DNA from: a virus
Direction: 5' to 3' (one strand)
IMG/VR virus record: IMGVR_UViG_3300013119_000224
Coordinates: 1-21,378 of that record
DNA: 21,378 bases
Of this stretch, positions 1 through 11,443 are shown one piece after another (position 1 is the stretch's first letter; every line of letters begins with the position of its first letter). The notes under the pieces were generated by a model. That model was given only the letters and a program-made list of their open reading frames with translations. It did not search any database and was not told where the DNA came from. The position numbers were made by a program, and so were the translations under genes.

Positions 1-2055
1 CAGGTTCGTGCAAGTTGTCAGTTCAAAACTCTGGCGAGATTGTCGAGTGGTTGGAGAATCGACCCAGCAAGCAAAGATGATTACGATGTTGAGATTGCCG
101 AGTTTGTAAATGATTCGTTGCAGATGATGGACGGAACGATTACAACGCTCTTGCGAAGCTTGATGTCTGCGATGTCTTTCGGTACATCGGTCCACGAGAT
201 TGTTTACAAGCCAATTGAACAAGGCAAGTGGACAGGCAAGTTTGGATTGCGAGCAATCAAACCGAAGAAGCCAGAGACATTCAAGTTTGAAACTGATGAC
301 TTTGGCAATATGACTTCCCTGTTGCAAAGAAAAGACCAGCAAGGCAAATCTTTCCGAAAGCTCGACCCCGATTACTTTGTAATTTGGAACTACGAATCAC
401 AAGGAGATTTCAAAGGCAAGTCAGAGCTTACTTCGGCGTATCGCTATTACAAGGCGAAGCAACTTCTGTCGATGGTCTGGAATGTTTACCTTGAGAAATA
501 CGCAAGCCCGACACCAGTTGCAAAGCACAAGCGAGGTGCAGGCACAACCGAGAAGCAGTCGGTTCTGAACTTCATTTCAAAGCTACACATCAAGAAAGCA
601 ATCGTTGTTCCAGAAGACTGGCAACTTGAATTGTTGGAAGGAGGCAGGAGTGGAGGCGATTACGAATCTGCAATCAAGTATTGTGACAGAATGATAAGCC
701 GTTCAATTCTGATTCCTCAACTGCTTGTCGACGAAGGCGACAGAGGAAGCTACGCACTTGGCAAACAACACAGCGACAACTTTACTTGGGTCTTGGACGC
801 TATTGGTGAAGAGGTTTCGGAGTCAATTATTGGCGAGCAAATAATCAAACGGCTTGTTGATTTCAACTTTGCAAATGTTGAGAAGTACCCGACTTTCAAG
901 TTTGAACCGTTCGATTCGGTCAACTTCAAAGAGGTAGCTGACTCCTTTGTTAAGCTTGTTGGCTCTGGAATTATGAGCCCCAATGAAACTTACATCAGGG
1001 AGAAACTAGAGATTCCAGTTTCAGATGTTGAAGCCGAAACTCCAGTTGATATTGAACCAGAAGCTCCAGTTGATATTGAACCAGAAACAGGTTTGACAGA
1101 CAAAGAGTTTGCTCAAGTAGAGTCCACATCTTTACACCTCAAGAAATGTAACTATGAAGAAATAAAAGAGTCGCTGGACTCTCTTGAGCTTTCTACGTCA
1201 AAACTTTTGGCTGGCGTTACTCAAGAAATGCTTGACGGATTATTGAAATCTATCAAGAAAAAGAAGCTTGTCGAGAACCGAGACTTTGCTGGCGTTGATA
1301 AGTTACAGCTTGTCGGTGTCGGTAAATTCAAATCGGTACTTGAAGCAACCCTTGTGCAGTCGCTCCATAAAGGAGTGGCTGACGCATTGGGTGAAGTCGA
1401 GCGAGGATTGAAAGATACAGGCGTTGAGTTCGTGCCAAAGTTCAAAGATAAGATGAAGAGCAATTACGCTGGCGAAGAGTACGACACCTTGAAAGATGTT
1501 CTCGCCTTCTGGTCAACGAAAGTTCCAGTTCAGAAATACCTGATGAAGTACTATGTCAGGCAGGCTTTTACAATTTCAGGAGTTCACCGAGACAGGCTTT
1601 TATCGCAAGCCCAAATCATCTTGCAAAAAGGAATCAAGAACCACGCAAGCTATACACAAGTGGCAAACGAGCTAACAACTTTATTTCAACCGTACCTTGA
1701 AACAGCAGGAGCGATTGATGCAGGTCTGGCGAATCCATACAGAATCAACAACATCGTTCGTACGAATATGAGCGAAGCATATAACTCTGGCAGGTGGGAC
1801 CTATTCCACGACCCAGAGGTTATAGGTTTCATAAAGGCGTTTGAATATTCTGCAGTTATCGATGACAGAACAACACCGTTCTGCGAGGATTGGAACGAGG
1901 AAGTTTTAAGAGCAGACGACCCGCAGTTGAACGGAATCAATCCACCGAACCATTACCAATGTCGTTCAATTTTGATTCCAATTGTTGAGGGCGAGAAATT
2001 CAAGCTAACACAATCAAAGCCATCAAGCGAACCAGCTGAAGGCTTCAGAATTTAG
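1..2055 (+). CDS. Portal protein (Mu gp29/DUF935-type) fused to Mu gpF-type minor head domain, 5' partial
   Basis: The reading frame is open from the first base, so the start lies upstream. The TTG at 40 is not a credible start because residues before it continue the portal fold (a stretch ending LSSGWRIDPAS is typical of the Mu gp29/DUF935 N-terminal third). The first ~1000 bases encode the portal, the dodecameric ring through which DNA enters and leaves the capsid. A linker with a 24-bp tandem repeat (1036-1083, giving repeated PVDIEPE) follows. The last ~500 bases encode a Mu gpF-type minor head domain, with a conserved RTN...AYNSGR segment around 1760-1795, a DDRTTPFC segment near 1860-1885 and PPNHYQCRS at about 1942-1968. 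In Mu, portal and gpF are separate genes; here they form one polypeptide. Inferred role: portal plus internal or minor head protein. Domain assignment is from remembered family patterns. Confidence 0.9.
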   Translation, partial: QVRASCQFKTLARLSSGWRIDPASKDDYDVEIAEFVNDSLQMMDGTITTLLRSLMSAMSFGTSVHEIVYKPIEQGKWTGKFGLRAIKPKKPETFKFETDDFGNMTSLLQRKDQQGKSFRKLDPDYFVIWNYESQGDFKGKSELTSAYRYYKAKQLLSMVWNVYLEKYASPTPVAKHKRGAGTTEKQSVLNFISKLHIKKAIVVPEDWQLELLEGGRSGGDYESAIKYCDRMISRSILIPQLLVDEGDRGSYALGKQHSDNFTWVLDAIGEEVSESIIGEQIIKRLVDFNFANVEKYPTFKFEPFDSVNFKEVADSFVKLVGSGIMSPNETYIREKLEIPVSDVEAETPVDIEPEAPVDIEPETGLTDKEFAQVESTSLHLKKCNYEEIKESLDSLELSTSKLLAGVTQEMLDGLLKSIKKKKLVENRDFAGVDKLQLVGVGKFKSVLEATLVQSLHKGVADALGEVERGLKDTGVEFVPKFKDKMKSNYAGEEYDTLKDVLAFWSTKVPVQKYLMKYYVRQAFTISGVHRDRLLSQAQIILQKGIKNHASYTQVANELTTLFQPYLETAGAIDAGLANPYRINNIVRTNMSEAYNSGRWDLFHDPEVIGFIKAFEYSAVIDDRTTPFCEDWNEEVLRADDPQLNGINPPNHYQCRSILIPIVEGEKFKLTQSKPSSEPAEGFRI
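1036..1083 (+). repeat. 24-bp tandem repeat in portal-gpF linker
   Basis: Two adjacent 24-bp units (1036-1059 and 1060-1083) differ at one base, and a third unit begins (GAAAC at 1084). They encode a repeated acidic, proline-containing linker (PVDIEPE twice). The length is a multiple of three, so the frame is kept. It marks the junction between the portal part and the gpF-like part. Confidence 0.9.
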
Positions 2056-2064
2056 GGAGTAGAA

Positions 2065-2307
2065 ATGCTAACAGAAAAGCAAGCAGTCCACGCAATGAGT
2101 CCAAGTTTGGACTTCCGCTCAACAGTTGACACAGCCAGATATACGAAAGCCGTGTACCTTGCGTCAACAGCTGATGGCGATTCCTTTGATGTTCACAACG
2201 AAGTAACAGACGCAGATATTACATTTGTAACTGGTGGAGCATTTTATCCATTGCGAACCAAAACCGCAATTACACTTGCTAGCTATACTGTTATTTACTT
2301 GTACTGA
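2065..2307 (+). CDS. Small head-region phage protein
   Basis: This 80-residue protein starts at an ATG preceded by GGGAGTAGAA, a good Shine-Dalgarno sequence, ten bases after the portal stop. The C-terminal half alternates short beta strands (AVYLAS..., ITFVTGGAFYPLRTK, SYTVIYLY). This resembles a small protein often found near capsid genes of siphoviruses, where a typical pattern is AxYVG...VTFxxVPxGxxLPVxVxxV...IVALY. I infer a small beta-rich structural protein of the head or neck. No enzymatic motif is present and the exact role is unknown. Confidence 0.75.
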   Translation: MLTEKQAVHAMSPSLDFRSTVDTARYTKAVYLASTADGDSFDVHNEVTDADITFVTGGAFYPLRTKTAITLASYTVIYLY

Positions 2308-2324
2308 AGGCAGGAGTGATGTTG

Positions 2325-2720
2325 ATGTTTTCTCTTGGGGTAGGCATGACGAGCAATCCAACTTTATCAGGCGGACGAGGTGGCTTGCCTGTTATGGGAC
2401 CAATATCTTACAACTGGCAGTCAGGTGGCGTTAATTGCGTCTTCACATTAATAAGTTTCAATTGCACTGGCAGAATCAAAGTCAAAGTCTATCACGACAC
2501 CACCTCAACTTGGAAAGAGTCGGCTTGGTCTTCACCACCAGCAACAAGCGAGGCAACATTTGGATTTGACGACATGGTTGTTGACGATTTCTACTCTCAA
2601 TTCCAAGTTATGTATGATTGTACAGATGGAACGCATGAGGATAGCGACTGGGTGATGGTTTACGAGTCGCAATGGCAACAACCTCCAAAGAGGCAACCAC
2701 CAATAGAAGTTGATTACTAG
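2325..2720 (+). CDS. Hypothetical phage protein between portal and protease
   Basis: The frame is open from a GTG at 2316, with ATGs at 2319 and 2325. I choose 2325 because the AGGAG at 2312-2316 then sits 8 bases before the start. The product is about 131 residues and begins MFSLGVGMTSNP, followed by a glycine-rich stretch and a beta-rich middle with many Trp and Tyr residues. It ends in a proline-rich basic tail (QQPPKRQPPIEVDY). I do not recognise a family. Its position inside the head operon, with short gaps on both sides, suggests a structural or assembly role. No membrane segment or catalytic motif is seen. Confidence 0.7.
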   Translation: MFSLGVGMTSNPTLSGGRGGLPVMGPISYNWQSGGVNCVFTLISFNCTGRIKVKVYHDTTSTWKESAWSSPPATSEATFGFDDMVVDDFYSQFQVMYDCTDGTHEDSDWVMVYESQWQQPPKRQPPIEVDY

Positions 2721-2728
2721 GAGCAATA

Positions 2729-3700
2729 ATGAGAGTTGAAGTTTTCAAGGCAGGCAACTGGACAGACAGCAACGGCAGAAGTGATGTTTACACCGAGGCT
2801 GATTTAGATGCAATGGTTGATGCTTTCAATCAAAACAAATCAGAATTGAAACCACCGTTAAGGCTTGGCTCTCACAATGAGGGAATCGCTCCAGCCGTTG
2901 GTTGGGTTTCTGGATTGGAAAGAAAAGGCGGAACGCTATTCGCAAGGTTCAGCGATGTTCCTGAAATTGTAAAAGAGGCAATTGAAAAAGGCTTGTACAA
3001 ATCTGTCTCGAGTGGAATCTGGTTTAACTGGAGACATAGAGGTAAGACTTGGAGTCGAGTTTTGAATCATGTCGCAATACTTGGTAGTGCCTTGCCAGCA
3101 GTAAAAGGGCTTGCTGATTTAGGGGCTTACCTGTCACAGGCTGAAGATGTTGTGGAGATATGTTACAGCCTCGACAACGAGGCAGAATTAACAGAAATGA
3201 AACTTGAAAGAGAGGACGCTAAAATGTCGGACGAAACAAAAGAAATGAACAGCGAAGAAGCTGTTGAAGAAACACAAGAAACAGTTGAAGAGGCACAAGA
3301 TGGTGCCAAAGATGAAGAGGTAGTTTTTTCTGATGAAGAAAAGGCGGACGAGCAGAACCTCGAACGAATCAAAGAGCTTGAGATTAAAGTTGCGGAGTAC
3401 GAGCAAGAGGCGATTAGTAAGGCTTGCTCCGCAGTAATTGAGAACGCCGTCAATGATGGTGCTCTTTTGCCAAAGCATAAAGATGAAGCTCTTGCAATAG
3501 CAACCTCACTTTGTGCAAGGCGATACAGCGAAGATGAGACGAACCTCTGGACATCATTCCAAACACTACTGGAAGACGCACCAAAGAAAGTTGACTTTTC
3601 AGAGAAAGCTGAAGTTGAAGAAGAGCAAGTAGCTGATGGCGAAAGTTCAGAATTTGAAGACGGCAAAAAGATTGCCGAGACGATAACACAAACATTGTAA
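2729..3700 (+). CDS. Mu gpI-like prohead protease with C-terminal scaffold region
   Basis: A 323-residue protein. Residues 1-135 match the phage prohead protease pattern of the Mu gpI type: LRLGSHNEG (His49), GWV at 58-60, a segment around DVPEIVKEAIEKGLY, then SVSSGIW (candidate nucleophile among Ser92, Ser94 and Ser95), and LNHVAILGSALPAVKGL (His114). A His-Ser-His arrangement is known in related capsid proteases; which serine acts here is inference. Residues ~150-323 are very rich in Glu, Asp and Lys, with predicted coiled coil, typical of an internal scaffold that is cleaved away during maturation. An internal start within the same frame is listed separately. The gene precedes decoration and capsid genes, as in other phages. 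Confidence 0.87.
   Translation: MRVEVFKAGNWTDSNGRSDVYTEADLDAMVDAFNQNKSELKPPLRLGSHNEGIAPAVGWVSGLERKGGTLFARFSDVPEIVKEAIEKGLYKSVSSGIWFNWRHRGKTWSRVLNHVAILGSALPAVKGLADLGAYLSQAEDVVEICYSLDNEAELTEMKLEREDAKMSDETKEMNSEEAVEETQETVEEAQDGAKDEEVVFSDEEKADEQNLERIKELEIKVAEYEQEAISKACSAVIENAVNDGALLPKHKDEALAIATSLCARRYSEDETNLWTSFQTLLEDAPKKVDFSEKAEVEEEQVADGESSEFEDGKKIAETITQTL
3224..3700 (+). CDS. Nested in-frame scaffold protein (putative internal start)
   Basis: Inside the protease gene, the ATG at 3224 (Met166 of the long product) is preceded by GAGGA at 3212-3216, with 7 bases between, a good Shine-Dalgarno arrangement. Starting here gives 158 residues that are almost wholly acidic and helical, beginning MSDETKEMNSEE. 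This is the layout known for lambda C/Nu3 and Mu I/Z, where a separate scaffold is made from the 3' end of the protease gene. What I see is the ribosome binding site and composition; independent translation is inference. Confidence 0.6.
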   Translation: MSDETKEMNSEEAVEETQETVEEAQDGAKDEEVVFSDEEKADEQNLERIKELEIKVAEYEQEAISKACSAVIENAVNDGALLPKHKDEALAIATSLCARRYSEDETNLWTSFQTLLEDAPKKVDFSEKAEVEEEQVADGESSEFEDGKKIAETITQTL

Positions 3701-3718
3701 ACACTTGGAGGTGAAGCA

Positions 3719-4096
3719 ATGGCAGGAGTAACAACTTATTTGAAAGAGACAAGAAACCCAGCGAGGCAGAATGTTCTTTCGGTTACGGTTACAATTGATG
3801 ATACCGCTTTAGATAGTGGACACACAAGCAACACACATATTCTGCGTAAGGGTTTGGTTGTAGGGATTATTACCGCTTCTGAAAAATATGCACAGTATGA
3901 CGACACGGCGAGCGATGGTACAGAAGTTGCGAAAGGCATCTTGATGGTCGATGTCGATTTGAAAGATGGAGACCCGACGGCAACAGCAACCGACCACACC
4001 GCACCAGTAATGGTTCTCGGTGAGGCGGTCTCTACTGAATGTATCGGACATGACGCAAATGCAACTACCGACCTTGTCGGTAAAATCTGGTTCTAA
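3719..4096 (+). CDS. Head decoration protein, lambda gpD-like
   Basis: A 125-residue protein with ATG after GGAGGTGAAGCA. The pattern HILRKGLVVG...KYAQYDD...DGTEVAKGIL fits the lambda gpD head-decoration family: a beta-rich N-terminal arm followed by a conserved LRKG...GILM core. The gpD family stabilises expanded capsids by trimerising at local three-fold axes. It lies directly before the major capsid gene, the canonical gpD-gpE order, and is only slightly longer than lambda gpD. The Mu-type portal and protease upstream make this a hybrid head module. Confidence 0.85.
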   Translation: MAGVTTYLKETRNPARQNVLSVTVTIDDTALDSGHTSNTHILRKGLVVGIITASEKYAQYDDTASDGTEVAKGILMVDVDLKDGDPTATATDHTAPVMVLGEAVSTECIGHDANATTDLVGKIWF

Positions 4097-4110
4097 AAGG
4101 AGGTGAACTA

Positions 4111-5094
4111 ATGTCTACATATGCAGGTAATTTCCTCAAAAATGGTGTCCTAACTGGCATCGTACAATCGTTCAAACCGAGCGACACACTTATAGCGAAA
4201 GACTTTTTCACACCCGTGAGAACCTTGAGCGACAACTTTTCTTTTGATGTTGTTTCAAACAGCAAAGGAAAATTGGATTTCAGAAACGCCGACTCTTCCG
4301 CTGGCGTGAGTTCTTTACTCGACAGAGAACGCAAGAAAGTAATTCTTGCTACTCTGAGAGAAAAGAGACAACTGCCAGAATCAGTTTTACGCTGGTGGAG
4401 TGGAGCGGGCAAAGATGTTCCAGAGGCAGGACAGCAAGCCCTCGCAAGAGAACTTGAAGACCTGAACTATCAACTCGATAGGACTTGGGAGTATCTGATG
4501 TGGCAAGAGCTGACAACGGGCTCGGTTACATTGACTGGCGAAGACACTCAAACCTATAACTTCGGAACGATTGGCTCCGCAACTTCAAGTCCTACTTGGG
4601 CGACAACTGCAACTTCAACACCGCTTGCCGATTTGGTAGGCTGGAAGAGAACAGTTGAACAAAACTCTGGAATGCCAGCGACAGATATTTATTTGAGTTC
4701 CCAAGCACTTGAATATTTATTCGAGTCAACTTCTGCACAAGCTCTTCTTGGTGATGGAACCAAAGACCAGTACGGAATGACTGGCGTAATTCCAAACATT
4801 GCAGGAATGAAAGTACATATCGTCGATGGTGGCTACGATGTTTCAGGTAGTTTCAAATACTACCTGTCAACAAATGGAACTGCTGGCAATATGTGCGTTA
4901 TCAAAACTGCTGGGGCAGTCGGTCAATTTGCCGAAGGTCCACCAGTTGATAGCAAAGCACCAGAAGGCTTGACTGGCAAGTTTGCTAAGTCGTGGGAAGA
5001 TGAAGACCCAGCTGGTCGTTGGGTGCTTGTAACTCAAACAGCTATGGCTGGTCTTACAAATCCCGAAAGAGTTTTCTGCGGGACACTTTGGTAG
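4111..5094 (+). CDS. Major capsid protein, lambda gpE-like
   Basis: A 327-residue protein, close in length to lambda gpE (341), with a strong ribosome binding site AAAGGAGGTGAAC before the ATG. Family-like segments are the N-terminal FFTPVRTLSDNFSFDVV, then DRERKKVILATLREKRQL, a helical LARELEDLNYQLDRTWEYLMWQ region, and a C-terminal domain ending with ERVFCGTLW. It forms the icosahedral shell with an HK97 fold. It sits immediately after the decoration protein and is followed by a strong RNA hairpin. The strong ribosome binding site fits a highly produced protein. Confidence 0.9.
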   Translation: MSTYAGNFLKNGVLTGIVQSFKPSDTLIAKDFFTPVRTLSDNFSFDVVSNSKGKLDFRNADSSAGVSSLLDRERKKVILATLREKRQLPESVLRWWSGAGKDVPEAGQQALARELEDLNYQLDRTWEYLMWQELTTGSVTLTGEDTQTYNFGTIGSATSSPTWATTATSTPLADLVGWKRTVEQNSGMPATDIYLSSQALEYLFESTSAQALLGDGTKDQYGMTGVIPNIAGMKVHIVDGGYDVSGSFKYYLSTNGTAGNMCVIKTAGAVGQFAEGPPVDSKAPEGLTGKFAKSWEDEDPAGRWVLVTQTAMAGLTNPERVFCGTLW

Positions 5095-5104
5095 GATAGC
5101 ATCA

Positions 5105-5140
5105 GGCAGGGCTGGCATTGTTTCAATTGCTGGCTCTGCC
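5105..5140 (+). other. Long RNA hairpin after the capsid gene
   Basis: GGCAGGGC (5105-5112) pairs with GCTCTGCC (5133-5140). The stem continues through two G-T wobble pairs (TG/TG) and a GCATTG/CAATTGC helix with one bulged base, closing on a TTT loop. No T-run follows, so it is not a standard intrinsic terminator. It sits in the 62-base gap after the capsid stop and ends six bases before the next Shine-Dalgarno. Likely roles are 3' protection of capsid mRNA, or partial attenuation or polarity control. Confidence 0.7.
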
Positions 5141-5156
5141 AAAAGAAAGGTTTGAA

Positions 5157-5375
5157 ATGTTAGTAACCGTTAAAACAAATGTTTTAGATTTTGGCGAGTT
5201 AGTAAAGTCGGGTTCAAAGCATATCTTCAAAAACGAAGTCGTCCTTGCTGATTTATTAGAACGAGGTCTTGCGGAACCTGTCGAGAAGCCAAAGCCAAAA
5301 GAGAAGCCAAAGGAATCGCCGTCGGCTGTTAACGCAAGGTACAAGGTTAAAGCGAAAAAGAAAGTTAAAAAATAA
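5157..5375 (+). CDS. Small basic head-region protein
   Basis: I choose the ATG at 5157, preceded by AAAGG at 5146-5150 with 6 bases between. The upstream in-frame TTG at 5118 lies inside the hairpin and has no ribosome binding site. The product is 72 residues. The N-terminal ~40 residues look folded (VTVKTNVLDFGELVKSG...VVLADLLERGLAEPV). The tail is a Lys/Pro-rich disordered stretch with KPKEKPKESP and a final KKKVKK. It resembles in shape the 54-residue protein at 6679: a short globular part plus a basic tail. A role in head completion is plausible but unproven. Confidence 0.75.
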   Translation: MLVTVKTNVLDFGELVKSGSKHIFKNEVVLADLLERGLAEPVEKPKPKEKPKESPSAVNARYKVKAKKKVKK

Positions 5376-5821
5376 TGGCTTACTGCGATGAAACTGAAGT
5401 CAGGTTATTTGCTCCGCAAGCAACTGCTGGTGAAACTTTTTCTGCTTATATTACAAAAGCTGATGGCATAATAGATTCAGAGCTAAGAGCCTTGTTTGAA
5501 GTTCCGTTTACAAGCCCAGATGAGCTAGTACAGATGATTTCAGCGAAGCTCACCGCCTCAATGTATCTTGAGGCTATGTACTCAAAACACGGCAGAGAGC
5601 CGAACGAGTATGCTGGCGATTTACGACAGTCTGCGATGAAGGAGTTGATGAAAGTTAAGAGCGACCCGACTTTGCTTTCACAGACATTGAGGACAGACGC
5701 AGATGGCGAAACAAAAGATGGCGTTTGTATTTCAGATAATGCGAGCGGTTGTTTTTCAATGGATAGAAATGCTAAAAACTGGGGCGGTTCGGATTCAATT
5801 TTAGATTTGGACGAGCAATGA
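5375..5821 (+). CDS. Head-tail adaptor, Mu gp36/DUF1320-like
   Basis: A 148-residue protein that starts on the last base of the previous stop (TAATG overlap), so it is translationally coupled. The N-terminus MAYCDETEVRLFAPQ, the central helices with IIDSELRALFEVPF, and a helical core rich in Met and Ala fit the Mu gp36 (DUF1320) pattern: a small helical adaptor that binds below the portal. The order after the capsid gene and before a Mu gpG-like gene agrees with Mu. The C-terminal third (Cys-, Gly- and Ser-containing) is less typical. Confidence 0.75.
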   Translation: MAYCDETEVRLFAPQATAGETFSAYITKADGIIDSELRALFEVPFTSPDELVQMISAKLTASMYLEAMYSKHGREPNEYAGDLRQSAMKELMKVKSDPTLLSQTLRTDADGETKDGVCISDNASGCFSMDRNAKNWGGSDSILDLDEQ

Positions 5822-6678: not shown

Positions 6679-6843
6679 ATGAAACTTAAGTACAATGGCG
6701 AGCCAGCTAAAATTCGTGGAATCGGATTTGTAGAAACTGGCAAAACTTATCAGGTAGAAAAGAAAGCTGGGGCGATACTGCTTGCCAGCGGTTTGTTTGA
6801 AAAGGTCGGTGCTGTTGCACCAAAGAAAAAGGCAGGTAAGTAA
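6679..6843 (+). CDS. 54-residue phage protein before the tail tube gene
   Basis: ATG at 6679 after AGGAGCAGAA gives MKLKYNGEPAKIRGIGF followed by ETGKTYQVEKKAGAILLASG, and a lysine-rich end. The stop TAA at 6841-6843 shares its last base with the next ATG (TAATG), showing coupling to the tube gene. The fold is probably a small beta barrel plus basic tail, like many short proteins in connector operons. The Tyr-Asn-Gly and Gly-Phe...Gly-Lys-Thr-Tyr pattern is common to them. Function unknown. Confidence 0.8.
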   Translation: MKLKYNGEPAKIRGIGFVETGKTYQVEKKAGAILLASGLFEKVGAVAPKKKAGK

Positions 6844-7829
6844 TGGGAGTTCCTAAGTGGAAGGGCTCGGTAGGTCTTGCGATTGCGAGCGACGCCAGCA
6901 CAAGAGTCGCCCCGACTGTTTTCCCGATTTGCGACTCGGGAAACATTGAAGGCGAGCCGAAAACATATGAGGCAAAAAACTCAATTACTCCAGATGTAAT
7001 TGCAATTGAAGAAGCAGGACATGATTTCAAGTGGAGCGTTGGCGGAATCGAGCCGACAGCAAAGATGTTCGGCTGGCTTTGGGCAGTTGCTCTTGGTAGT
7101 GATGCCTTTGCGACTGATACGCATACGATTACACCAGATGATGATTCCAAGTATCTATGCCCAAGCATTGACAAGGGCGTTGACTTGGGAAGTTCAACTC
7201 CTACGATGTCAGGTCTTGGCGGTAAGGTTGGTTCTTTATCTTTTGAAATCGCAGATGGTGGATTTGCAACGATGGAAGCAAGTGGTCTCTTGTGCGATTT
7301 GGATTCGACATATTACACCGCTCTGTCACCGTCAATTGTCAGCACGAAGTTTAGAAAGCCTATCAGTTGGGAGTGGCTCAAACACGCTTCCGCTAGTTTT
7401 GCAGTTGGTTACGCTGGAGGAGCTTCATCCGCAGATAAAAACATAACTGGCTTAAAGGTTAATTATTCGAGGGCTCAAAAGGGAACTGGCATCTCTGCGA
7501 ACTCGGAACAGCCAACTGGAATTACCGAGGGAATGAGAGAGCTTACTTTTGAGATTACAAAAGAGTTTGATGCAAACGCAACAGATGCTTTTGATGCTTG
7601 GATTGGGCAAACAGGTTCGGTTGCCATAAGCATGACGTTGTATGCTGATACCGACCAGCAGGTAAGTTTGGTAATTCCAAACGCAACTATAGCTGGTAGC
7701 TTTGGCGATGAGGTTGGAGCTGGTGAAGATACAATTACTGCGACCTTGTCCTGCAAGGCGTTTCAAGATGCTAGCGACCCATTGGTCATCATCACGGTAA
7801 AAGACGATACCACAGGCGTTTACACCTAA
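6843..7829 (+). CDS. Major tail tube protein
   Basis: A 328-residue beta-rich protein with little Cys and no membrane segment, starting on the last base of the previous stop. Gly, Ser, Thr and Asp dominate. The pattern GxSxxIxxGFxxMxxSG (here GKVGSLSFEIADGGFATMEASG) near the middle, and a C-terminal part with VIPNATIAGSFGD, are typical of siphovirus tube proteins of the Phage_tube_2 type. Position between a tail terminator candidate and the tail chaperone agrees. It polymerises into the tail tube around the tape measure. Confidence 0.82.
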   Translation: MGVPKWKGSVGLAIASDASTRVAPTVFPICDSGNIEGEPKTYEAKNSITPDVIAIEEAGHDFKWSVGGIEPTAKMFGWLWAVALGSDAFATDTHTITPDDDSKYLCPSIDKGVDLGSSTPTMSGLGGKVGSLSFEIADGGFATMEASGLLCDLDSTYYTALSPSIVSTKFRKPISWEWLKHASASFAVGYAGGASSADKNITGLKVNYSRAQKGTGISANSEQPTGITEGMRELTFEITKEFDANATDAFDAWIGQTGSVAISMTLYADTDQQVSLVIPNATIAGSFGDEVGAGEDTITATLSCKAFQDASDPLVIITVKDDTTGVYT

Positions 7830-7848: not shown

Positions 7849-8247
7849 ATGGCGTATGTTCTAAAAACAACAATCCAGAAAGAGGATTGTTACGAACACA
7901 AGATGGCGTATCAAGCAAACGGACAGCAAGCGAAAGATGGTGACGAAGTCGCGGGTTATATAACTGCTTGGATTAAGGGATTGAATGGAGAAGACGAAAG
8001 AGTCTTGTCGAACCAAATGATGGAAATTGACAAGAAAGGAAAGTCCAAGATGAACACAGGCACGGTAATTCGTGCAAAAGTTTGTCGTGGAGTTTTCGCT
8101 CTTGATGGCTTGGAGAAGGAAGATGGGAGTCCGATTGAAACTATCAATCACAAGGCTTATGACAGGTTGCCTTCTTGGATTACCAAGTCAATTTTGAACA
8201 AGATAAATGATTTGATTGGTGAAGACGAAGAGGACGCAGAGGAGTAG
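7849..8247 (+). CDS. Tail assembly chaperone (lambda gpG-like role)
   Basis: A 132-residue protein with ATG after GAGGCGAGCA. Small, helical and acidic at the C-terminus (EDEEDAEE), and located between the tube and tape-measure genes, where tail-assembly chaperones lie in siphoviruses. A second ORF follows in the -1 frame without any start codon (listed next), the lambda G/GT arrangement. Chaperones of this kind coat the tape measure while the tail is built. Assignment rests on position and on the frameshift layout rather than on clear sequence identity. Confidence 0.75.
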   Translation: MAYVLKTTIQKEDCYEHKMAYQANGQQAKDGDEVAGYITAWIKGLNGEDERVLSNQMMEIDKKGKSKMNTGTVIRAKVCRGVFALDGLEKEDGSPIETINHKAYDRLPSWITKSILNKINDLIGEDEEDAEE

Positions 8248-8540
8248 GTAAGGCAGTTCGGTTTCTGCTGAAAGCACAAGACAAGAACATCGAGATTCTG
8301 AACTGCCTGACCTGTGATAAGCCAGACTACTATTGCGAAGTTTGTCCAATTGATTCACAGCCAAAGCTAACACATCGGGCAAACTTCTATTTGAAGCTCT
8401 GGAAGAGGGCGAAGGCATATTGTCAACTTCCTGTTGATGGCGGGTTGCTAGACCAACCAGAGGGCATTATGGGTTACCTTGATATAATAGAGGATACCGT
8501 CAATGATTTTAATAATAGACAAGCAAAGGCGAAGCAATGA
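8223..8540 (+). CDS. Start-less -1 frame ORF: frameshifted C-terminal part of tail chaperone (GT-like)
   Basis: After a TGA at 8220-8222 this frame is open to TGA 8538-8540, about 105 codons. No ATG, GTG or TTG occurs in it for roughly the first 55 codons, yet the product looks like a real protein. It contains a CxxC-x6-CxxC motif (Cys-Leu-Thr-Cys ... Cys-Glu-Val-Cys) that could bind zinc, then helical segments with FYLKLWKRAKAY and PEGIMGYLDIIEDT. Such pre-tape-measure proteins exist in many phages. It is in the -1 frame relative to the chaperone and overlaps it at 8223-8247, so it is most simply made as a fusion by frameshifting. No canonical XXXYYYZ slippery heptamer is visible in the overlap. 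Its stop overlaps the tape-measure start (ATGA). Confidence 0.7.
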   Translation, partial: RRRGRRGVGKAVRFLLKAQDKNIEILNCLTCDKPDYYCEVCPIDSQPKLTHRANFYLKLWKRAKAYCQLPVDGGLLDQPEGIMGYLDIIEDTVNDFNNRQAKAKQ

Positions 8541-11443
8541 AGCGTGAAGTTGCAATCTATTTAAGAGCGTACAATTCAATGAAGGCTGGTTTGGCTTCTG
8601 CTAATGCCAGCCTTCAGGCGTTCAGGACAAAGGCGAATGCGATTATTCTTGGCATTGCCAAGACGGGAGCGTTGGCTTTCGTTGCTCTTGGAGCTTCTTC
8701 TGCTGTTGTCGGTGCAAGATTTGAGCAGTCGATGGCGAATGTCGGTTCACTCATGACTGGGCTTTATGGCTCGGGAAGTAAGTTAGATTCTGTCATTGAG
8801 AGCCTAACCGTCAAAGCTCGCGAAATTGGGAGCACAACCGCCTACACCGCAAGTCAAGCTAGCGAGGCAATGTATAGCCTTGCTTCTTCTGGAATGACAG
8901 CCAACGAAGTCTTCAATTCAACAGAAGGCGTCACCAAACTCGCTGGTGCAACAATGGGAGAGATGGGAACGAGTGCAGAGCTTGTTGCCTCATCGTTGAG
9001 GGTGTTTGGTCTTGACGCAACCGAAACAGACAGGGTTGTGAATGTATTTGGTGCTGGTATTCAAAACTCTATGCTTAACCTGTCGAGGCTGTCGGAGTCT
9101 ATGAAGTACGCTTCGCCAGTTGCCAATCAACTTGGAATGTCAGTTGAAGAAACAACAGGTGCTTTGGCTGTTTTGCATAATGCAGGGCTAAAAGGTTCGA
9201 TGGCTGGAACAGGCTTGAGAATGGTTCTTGCGAAACTTGCAAAAGGTGGCGATGACTTAAAGAAAGTTCTCGGCGAAACAACTGTTGAAAGCGATGGATT
9301 TTCTGCGGTGATTGGAAAGATTGAAGAAGCTGGATTGTCGGCTGGGGAGATGTTCAACCTATTTGGGACGAGGGCGGCAAGCGGAATCCTAGCCTCCTTG
9401 TCCGCAGGTAAAGCAGGTCTTGATGATATGACGGAAGCCGTAACTGGCACGCAGTCCGCTTATGAAATGTATGAAGTCCAAATGAACACAACGAAGAATC
9501 AGGCTAACATTCTAAAGAGTGCCGTTGAAGATTTGATGATTGAGATATTCAGAGGTGGCGAAGCTGGAGATGGCTTTGGCGACAAACTTACTGATGGATT
9601 CAGGAGGGCTTCAGCTTGGGTCAATGAGAACAAGAAAGTTGTCGCCGAAGCGATGAATAAGATTATAAATGTTTTAGCGAGAGCTGTATCCCTTGCTCTT
9701 AATTTACTCGGGCAACTCTGGAGTTCGGTTACTGGTTTATGGGATTCGCTTGGCTGGCTTCGAGATGCCTTTTCAGCTACCTTTGGGTTCCTTGAAAGAA
9801 ACAGCGAGTTAATTACTGGTGCAATAAAAGGGCTTGCAATTTTCGCAACTGTTCTTTACACCGTCTCGACTGCCTTTGCAATCTTCAATGCGGTTGTGGC
9901 GATGAATCCTATATCAATGATTATAATTGGAATCGGTGTTTTGATTGCAATTATCTCTGCCCTTGTTGAGAAGCTCCGTGCCGTTGTTGAGGAGCTCGGT
10001 GGTTGGGGCGTTGTTTGGGCGAAGACAAAGGAGATTGTTGACGTTGCAATTGAGAAGATGAGATTTCAGTTCAAGCGGTTAGCTAGTCATATCAAAAACA
10101 ACCTGCTTGATGCAAAAATGGATATCTTGATTTTTGTAGAAAATGCAAAGTATTCGTTCGCCTTAATCGGTGCTACATTAAAGGCTGGTGGAAAGTTTTA
10201 CTGGGCTTACTTAAAAACGGTTGTGATTGTGTTAAAAGGCGTTTGGGGTGCCGTAAAACAAATGGGCAGAAATGTTGGTGAAGCAATGTCAAATCTTGGC
10301 AAGGTGATTACTGACCCCCTTAACGCGAGGAAGCATTGGGAAAGGGCGAAGAAGTCTTTGTCGGTAAATATGAGCGATGTTGCTTCTGGTGTGAAAAATG
10401 AGGTTGCTAGCATCTGGTCTAGTACAGCCGATTCCGTTTCTGCCGAGTTTGTAGAAATTAGAAGTGAACACAAGGCAACCGTTGATGGGATACGGTCTGA
10501 TACCAAGACAGCAATTGACGCTAACAACAAGCAACTTGAAGACGAAGCACAAGCAAGCTCCGAGAGAATTGTCGAAATTGCCAAAACGGCGAAGGTTGAA
10601 ATTGACAGAATAAAATCCGATACTGGAGTGGGTGAGGCTGAGAAGGTAGTTGATGAATCTGGAACAGGCGAATCTGGAACAGGCGAATTTGGAATTGATA
10701 CTTCTGATTTAAGTAATGATGTAAACGCCGTTAGGGACGAGGTTCTTGTTGTTGCCGATGAAATGGAATCGGCTCTTGGCTCCTCGTTTGACAACGCTTG
10801 GGGTTCGATTCTGGACAGCTCAAAGACTGGTGCGGAGAAGATGAAGGCTATTTGGAGTAATCTCGGAAGCAGTATATTCGGAGTTATTGGCAAGATAGTC
10901 AAGGCACAGCTGTTTGGTGACAAGGTGTCTCTTGCAAGTGCCGAGGGAACAACAGGTGCAAAGCTCACTTTGAATGAGGCAGAGACTGGCTCAAATTTAA
11001 GAACAGCAGTCTCTGGCTTCTTTAAGGCTTACAGTTCATTGCCGTTCATTGGTCAGGCTCTTGCACTCGGTGGAATAGCTTTAATGATGAAGATGATTTC
11101 AAAGTTCTACGAGGGCGGAATTGTTACTGGACCGAGCGGTCGAGACAATGTTCTGGCGATGGTTACGGCTGGCGAGTATGTCATGCCAGTTGAACAGACT
11201 GCCCGCTATCGCGGAGAGCTTGACGCAATGCGTTCAGGGCGTTACGAGGGCACAAGACCGAACCTTATCGCAGGCGGTTCTGGTGGCGGTGGTAGCGGTG
11301 GGTTGATAGCGGTTACAAATCATATTCATATCGGCGAAAATGGATTGCTAATAACAGAGGATTCGATTTCAATGCGCAGGTTTGCAGAACAAATTGACGA
11401 CATAACGCAAGACACCATTAAAAAGAATTATCGGGAGGATTAA
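8537..11443 (+). CDS. Tail tape measure protein
   Basis: A 968-residue protein, the longest in the window. Residues ~70-280 match the TP901-type tape measure core (PhageMin_Tail): FEQSMANVGSL, REIGSTTAYTASQASEAMY, LASSGMTANEV, then a conserved GMSVEETTGALAVL...GLKGSMAGTGLRMVL run. Residues ~428-478 form a strongly hydrophobic stretch, and a second lies near 836-853. A helical, charged section follows, with a 15-bp DNA repeat. The C-terminus has the usual GGIVTGPSGRDNVLAMVTAGEYVMP signature. By the known rule of about 1.5 angstrom per residue, the tail would be near 145 nm. It starts inside the previous stop (ATGA). Confidence 0.95.
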   Translation: MKREVAIYLRAYNSMKAGLASANASLQAFRTKANAIILGIAKTGALAFVALGASSAVVGARFEQSMANVGSLMTGLYGSGSKLDSVIESLTVKAREIGSTTAYTASQASEAMYSLASSGMTANEVFNSTEGVTKLAGATMGEMGTSAELVASSLRVFGLDATETDRVVNVFGAGIQNSMLNLSRLSESMKYASPVANQLGMSVEETTGALAVLHNAGLKGSMAGTGLRMVLAKLAKGGDDLKKVLGETTVESDGFSAVIGKIEEAGLSAGEMFNLFGTRAASGILASLSAGKAGLDDMTEAVTGTQSAYEMYEVQMNTTKNQANILKSAVEDLMIEIFRGGEAGDGFGDKLTDGFRRASAWVNENKKVVAEAMNKIINVLARAVSLALNLLGQLWSSVTGLWDSLGWLRDAFSATFGFLERNSELITGAIKGLAIFATVLYTVSTAFAIFNAVVAMNPISMIIIGIGVLIAIISALVEKLRAVVEELGGWGVVWAKTKEIVDVAIEKMRFQFKRLASHIKNNLLDAKMDILIFVENAKYSFALIGATLKAGGKFYWAYLKTVVIVLKGVWGAVKQMGRNVGEAMSNLGKVITDPLNARKHWERAKKSLSVNMSDVASGVKNEVASIWSSTADSVSAEFVEIRSEHKATVDGIRSDTKTAIDANNKQLEDEAQASSERIVEIAKTAKVEIDRIKSDTGVGEAEKVVDESGTGESGTGEFGIDTSDLSNDVNAVRDEVLVVADEMESALGSSFDNAWGSILDSSKTGAEKMKAIWSNLGSSIFGVIGKIVKAQLFGDKVSLASAEGTTGAKLTLNEAETGSNLRTAVSGFFKAYSSLPFIGQALALGGIALMMKMISKFYEGGIVTGPSGRDNVLAMVTAGEYVMPVEQTARYRGELDAMRSGRYEGTRPNLIAGGSGGGGSGGLIAVTNHIHIGENGLLITEDSISMRRFAEQIDDITQDTIKKNYRED
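10655..10684 (+). repeat. 15-bp tandem repeat inside tape measure gene
   Basis: GAATCTGGAACAGGC occurs twice in a row (10655-10669 and 10670-10684), and a third diverged copy begins at 10685 (GAATTTGGAA). It encodes ESGTG twice, a flexible Gly/Ser/Thr linker. The unit is a multiple of three bases, so copy-number change would alter tape length without breaking the frame. Confidence 0.85.

Follow-up and report, generated by a model that had tools for sequence, protein, structure and literature searches.

Within a 21,378-nucleotide stretch of viral DNA (the entire IMG/VR virus record IMGVR_UViG_3300013119_000224, positions 1 to 21,378; hereafter the window), a pair of overlapping reading frames is flanked by the genes for the tail tube and tape measure proteins, as are tail assembly chaperone genes of the G/GT type (Table 1). 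The upstream frame encodes a G-like protein with an acidic C terminus (GEDEEDAEE, at the stop codon), and the second frame, also as in G/GT-type pairs, overlaps the first in a shifted register and has no start codon of its own. Many tailed phages make a longer tail assembly chaperone through ribosomes that slip back one base before the stop codon; in phage lambda, gpG and gpGT are produced with a -1 frameshift at GGGAAAG. Profiles in Pfam and PHROGs include no family for either chaperone half, so naming by profile was unsuccessful, and the G-like half has weak profile similarity to the G halves of the relatives described below (hhalign, 45 columns, 5% probability, pairwise E 0.008).

Table 1. 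Features of the tail chaperone locus (window coordinates)
Feature	Coordinates	Strand	Basis or remark
Tail tube/major tail protein gene	6843..7829	+	PF18906 Phage_tube_2 5e-7, phrog_290 3e-13
Upstream (G-like) tail assembly chaperone, 132 aa, zero frame	7849..8247	+	Sits between tail tube and tape measure genes
-1-frame ORF without start; 8244 onward, T-like C-terminal domain	8223..8540	+	Homology, codon usage
Possible internal Shine-Dalgarno stimulator, SD-like AGAGGA	8229..8234	+	7 nt 5' of last GAG codon
Proposed frameshift site A_GAG_GAG, then zero-frame stop UAG	8238..8247	+	Best re-pairing in overlap
Stem 5' arm, AGGCAGUUCGG	8251..8261	+	6 nt after last GAG
Stem 3' arm, CUGAACUGCCU	8298..8308	+	Folding
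Tape measure protein gene, 968 aa	8537..11443	+	PF10145 5e-33, phrog_1533 2e-61

The first-pass annotation of this DNA had described a -1 frame of about 105 codons overlapping the upstream gene by 25 bases, with no ATG, GTG, or TTG for some 55 codons, two CxxC pairs, and an ATGA overlap with the tape measure gene, and this description is accurate. The frame is open for exactly 105 codons between a TGA at 8220-8222 and its stop at 8538-8540, it shares 25 nt with the upstream gene, its first in-frame start-type codon is a TTG at 8391 (56 codons in), the pairs are C-L-T-C and C-E-V-C, and the tape measure ATG at 8537 lies over the stop of the ORF. The length of the ORF alone is not beyond chance, because antisense frames nearby are free of stops for 92 to 145 codons. 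We accept the ORF as real because of its homology, described below, together with its codon usage, which scores +0.13 log-odds per codon compared with -0.49 for both other forward frames and is coding-like in the -1 frame in the segment 8244-8308.

An assembly indel at the chaperone junction is unlikely, because three assemblies agree there, with distinct single-nucleotide variants (SNVs) elsewhere and no indels, and while the three samples may be related, the contigs IMGVR_UViG_3300009378_000158 and 3300007510_000507 are identical to the window over 8223-8540, junction included, and differ from it at other places by 14 and 19 SNVs, respectively. Single-protein scans with the tail genes returned near-identical contigs only. 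The SNVs between contigs are clustered, with four in 23 nt in the tail tube gene (7650-7672; contig L003) and the same four alleles in both other contigs within a 49-nt part of the tape measure gene (10921-10969), a pattern expected of recombining variants.

We note two further features of the window. Within positions 1-5094, head genes resembling those of Mu (an ORF that fuses Portal_Mu with Mu F-like, and a Mu-like protease) adjoin a major capsid protein of the capsid E type and a tail module like that of siphoviruses. A 39-nt inverted repeat with 90% identity (2150-2188 and 5308-5346) codes for VYLASTADGDSF in the gene at 2065-2307 and lies antisense in the gene at 5118-5375; it is possibly a small inverted duplication.

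Homology of the -1-frame ORF

A direct search of phage records with the -1-frame protein gave only a weak match (E 0.6), to the C-terminal part of a Rhodococcus phage ReqiDocB7 protein annotated as 'truncated pre-TMP frameshift protein'. In a two-sequence comparison the proteins match at 38% over 50 residues (E 3e-8), and a profile of Rhodococcus and Gordonia phage relatives supports the match (hhalign 85%). A motif search seeded with GGLLDQ led to two IMG/VR phages, L159 and L160, which have the 11 residues LPVDGGLLDQP and the Cys positions in common with the window, and L159 led in turn to Rhizobium phages L338C, RHph_I4, and RHph_TM16, Agrobacterium phage JP1, Rhodobacter phages RcZahn and RcTiptonus, and Alteromonas phage P24. 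Homology to these and the IMG/VR phages is stronger than to the Rhodococcus and Gordonia phages; a profile of nine core relatives (L159, L160, L162 to L167, and L169), built without the window protein, matches the second half of the -1 protein with 96.7% probability (hhalign, pairwise E 3.7e-10). Region 8244-8537 is homologous to -1-frame second ORFs located directly 5' of tape measure genes, and to known frameshift-encoded domains, as in other G/GT-type pairs. Because of this homology and the codon usage, we identify the -1 ORF, by sequence comparison, as the T-like C-terminal half of a lambda G/GT-type tail assembly chaperone pair.

The T-like domain, counted from 8244, has 98 residues and is Cys-rich, with the LPVDGGLLDQP motif. 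Its Cys pattern (CxxC...C...CP, window 8304-8348) is conserved across the relatives, with shortened spacing here, and suggests a small metal-binding element in T domains of this kind. Other search routes were less productive: a capsid-anchored search found phages with unrelated tails, a tape-measure-anchored search found mostly unrelated chaperones and one useful case (L098), and scans of genome contigs found no relatives, and hence gave no hint of a prophage or host. In Caudoviricetes sp. vir515 (Methanosarcinales; L009), an unannotated -1-frame ORF without a start (5283-5786) lies between the pre-tape-measure gene (5083-5499) and the tape measure gene, and is likely a missed GT product.

Slip sites and start codons at the junction

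The second ORF is in the -1 frame in every relative examined, and each of the nine core relatives carries a canonical heptamer 5' of its zero-frame stop: AAAAAAC in L159, L164, L165, L166, and L169, GGGAAAC in L160, L162, and L163, and AAAAAAG in L167. The heptamer is 0 to 9 codons from the stop in eight of the nine and 27 codons away in L167. Further IMG/VR members have GGGAAAC (L174), GGGAAAG (L175), and AAAAAAG (L177), and among the actinophages Woes and Monty have AAAAAAG, with looser sites in ReqiDocB7 and Perlina (GGAAAAA against UAA) and in GMA3 and Camerico (GGATTTC). The slip codons adjoin the stop in L164, L169, L177, ReqiDocB7, and Perlina. In the records of L162, L163, L164, L165, L167, and L168, the second half of the chaperone is entered as a hypothetical protein of its own that begins at an internal start, with no joined (frameshift) feature.

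In the window, there is no canonical slippery heptamer in register within the overlap (8223-8247), and the absence of an XXXYYYZ motif reported in the first-pass annotation is thus confirmed. The junction reads GAA GAG GAC GCA GAG GAG UAG, and when all overlap positions were scored for tRNA re-pairing (assuming U34/G34 anticodons), A GAG GAG ranked first with 4.0 of 6, equal to the GGATTTC sites of GMA3 and Camerico and below the sites of the other relatives. On slipping from GAG to GGA, tRNA-Glu would retain two Watson-Crick pairs and a middle G.U; the preceding tRNA, moving from GAG to AGA, would retain a wobble and one Watson-Crick pair with a mismatch at the first position, and this mismatch weakens the case for frameshifting. 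A_GAG_GAG stands against its UAG just as AAAAAAG does against UAG in L177, AAAAAAC against UAA in L164 and L169, and GGAAAAA against UAA in ReqiDocB7 and Perlina, and the -1 reading past the site is V-G-K-A in the window and V-G-A-A in L177. The first Cys follows 20 residues after the candidate site, compared with 15 to 17 residues after the heptamers of the nine core relatives. By analogy with dnaX, the GAG-rich AGAGGA at 8229-8234 is a possible internal Shine-Dalgarno stimulator. RNA polymerase slippage was ruled out by inspection, the overlap being without a homopolymer run.

A -1 shift elsewhere in the overlap, or an equivalent move such as +2, is an unlikely alternative. One such site, A GAG GAC (8229-8235), aligns with the GGGAAAC of L160 at an equal codon count to the stop (GGA AAC GCC TCC GCC UAG in L160 with GAG GAC GCA GAG GAG UAG in the window), but its re-pairing is poorer than that of A GAG GAG and the stem described below would begin 15 nt 3' of it, beyond the distance at which a usual stimulator lies; no case of a +2 shift was seen in the chaperone family.

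Most relatives are without a start codon near the junction. The first-pass annotation named a normal start here in relatives as an observation that would refute its reading, and such starts are not general, but an ATG or GTG does lie no more than about ten codons from the stop in four of them: RcZahn (an ATG that overlaps the stop), RHph_I4 (GTG, 6 nt after it), L338C (GTG), and RHph_TM16 (ATG), in which reinitiation may occur. In the window, reinitiation after the UAG would have to use a non-standard start (AAG 8250, CUG 8265 or 8268, AUC 8289, or AUU 8295), there being no standard one available, perhaps aided by the SD-like GAGGAG that the annotation had correctly placed before the stop (8239-8244). 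The AGGAG at 8240-8244 and a geometry suited to translational coupling would favor this, but AAG 8250 and GCA 8253, the only in-frame codons suitably spaced from the Shine-Dalgarno-like sequence, are very poor starts or non-starts, and the SD-like GAG/GAA runs are explained by the acidic tail of the protein. Given also that slippery sites are present in all of the relatives and nearby start codons in only some, and that 8244-8308 is already coding-like in the -1 frame, we consider reinitiation improbable.

A stem downstream of the junction

The sequence after the junction is predicted to fold into a stem with an 11-bp core starting 6 nt 3' of the last GAG, within the 5 to 9 nt typical of stimulatory structures at canonical -1 sites. 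The inverted repeat (arms 8246-8266 and 8293-8313) folds with an MFE of -27.3 kcal/mol (z -3.4), and a lower stem pairs 8245-8249 with 8310-8314. An equal stem at the same place arose in 9/5000 dinucleotide shuffles, and among sequences encoding the same -1-frame protein, equally stable folds were found in 2/2000 with genome codon usage and 14/2000 with permuted codons; because so few synonymous randomizations fold as well, coding does not account for the stem. The prediction comes from a single sequence, the only close relatives being identical there. Strong stems follow the sites of L098 (z -4.3), L174 (-3.2), Perlina (-3.1), and also L163, and no significant stem follows those of L159, L160, L169, L175, and L177. 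A search for a pseudoknot gave nothing beyond a 6-bp loop match at 8280/8341. A second hairpin lies 3' of the first (arms 8337-8350 and 8374-8387), and is not clearly beyond coding expectation (110/2000).

The hairpin also bears on bypassing of the kind seen in T4 gene 60, in which ribosomes would take off at GAG 8242 before the UAG, jump over 47 nt, and land in the -1 frame at GAG 8292. The matched take-off and landing codons, the stop after take-off, and the hairpin between them fit such an event, but GAG recurs often by chance, and the gap is not of the non-coding type found between the matched codons of gene 60: it looks coding (+0.11 log-odds), encodes VGKAVRFLLKAQDKNIE, and matches the 15 to 17 residues of the relatives in length and partly in sequence. 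We regard bypassing as the most remote of the readings considered.

Because all core relatives have a better site, the site in this phage may be decayed, with the fusion made poorly or not at all. We think it very unlikely that only the G-like protein is made, or that the contig has an indel and the frames are really joined: the three assemblies concur at the junction, with SNVs elsewhere and 0 indels, the ORF is still without stops and has kept its conserved motif and Cys residues, and the stem is stronger than coding accounts for.

Proposed mechanism and relation to known systems

These patterns make it probable that -1 programmed frameshifting at a degenerate, stop-adjacent A_GAG_GAG followed by UAG yields a G/GT-type fusion. 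Support comes from the heptamers before the stop in the core relatives, the rank of A GAG GAG as the best re-pairing in the overlap, a stem beyond coding expectation, and -1-frame codon usage from 8244; the lack of a significant stem in several relatives, the derivation of the stem from one sequence, and the weak similarity of the G half weaken it. Among the three explanations first proposed for this ORF, an unusual frameshift is thus best supported, with the agreement of three assemblies arguing against an indel and the slippery site of the relatives at the same junction against a rare start codon. The degree of mystery attached to it is lessened by the stem, the homologous family, and a published proposal that tRNA-Glu re-pairs from GAG/GAA to GGA in tail-chaperone frameshifts of phages (PMC10885494), all of which the first-pass annotation missed.

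In the proposed mechanism, the majority of ribosomes would terminate at UAG 8245-8247 to give the 132-residue G-like protein (14.8 kDa), and a minority would shift -1 on A_GAG_GAG while the UAG awaits decoding, favored by ribosome pauses at the stop codon and at the 11-bp stem, which starts 6 nt past the last GAG. The last Glu-tRNA would move from GAG (8242-8244) to GGA (8241-8243), with GUA then decoded as Val, and the product would be a 230-residue fusion of about 26 kDa (...EDAEE-VGKAVRF...NRQAKAKQ). Frameshifting at this site is expected to be low-level, and a tryptic peptide across it, INDLIGEDEEDAEEVGK, would indicate that the frame changes just past the last GAG. In the lambda chaperones, binding to the tape measure protein is through the G part and binding to tail tube subunits is through the T part (PMC5009743); we infer the same roles here by analogy, in which case the fusion would connect tape measure protein with subunits of the tail tube. 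A somewhat more tentative version is that a single P-site tRNA-Glu slips from GAG to GGA with UAG in the A site, with no need of a slippery heptamer and with the hairpin and competition from release factor as driving forces; if so, the ratio between the chaperones would be dependent on release factor 1.

Chaperone genes arranged in this way are well known, and -1 sites that lack a slippery heptamer are rare but have precedent, there being no motif anywhere in the chaperone overlap in 22 of 2476 annotated genomes (PMC10885494). Frameshift predictors depend on slippery motifs, and published chaperone sets leave a motif-less residue; this locus is a clean test case, with a motif-less site in a homologous family that otherwise has ordinary sites, and the slip-site change is directly testable. 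If the mechanism is true, the rules for -1 frameshifting beside stop codons would widen.

The locus resembles lambda gpG/gpGT in its order of tail tube, G, T (in the -1 frame), and tape measure and in its start-less second ORF, and differs in lacking XXXYYYZ, in the proposed shift at A_GAG_GAG beside the stop, and in its different, Cys-rich T domain. Phages vB_RleS_L338C, RHph_I4, RHph_TM16, JP1, and RcZahn (L162-L166) have the homologous -1 domain directly 5' of tape measure, with CxxC...C...CP and LP..GG...Q in common with the window, but have GGGAAAC or AAAAAAC, and the Cys segment is shorter in the window. ReqiDocB7 and Perlina (L010 and L015), with an annotated pre-TMP frameshift, are similar in having a slip within two codons before the stop, re-pairing of tRNA-Glu from GAA to GGA, and a stem a few nucleotides past the stop, and their C-terminal motif is weakly homologous (38% over 50 aa), but their second tRNA re-pairs perfectly (AAA on AAA) compared with GAG on GGA in the window. 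In the PRFect 'fivetwo' motif GGGGGAA of SEA-PHAGES chaperones, about a thousand instances of which have been reported, tRNA-Glu is likewise proposed to rebind GGA through a middle G.U (PMC10885494), whereas its first tRNA stays perfectly paired and that of the window would have a first-position mismatch.
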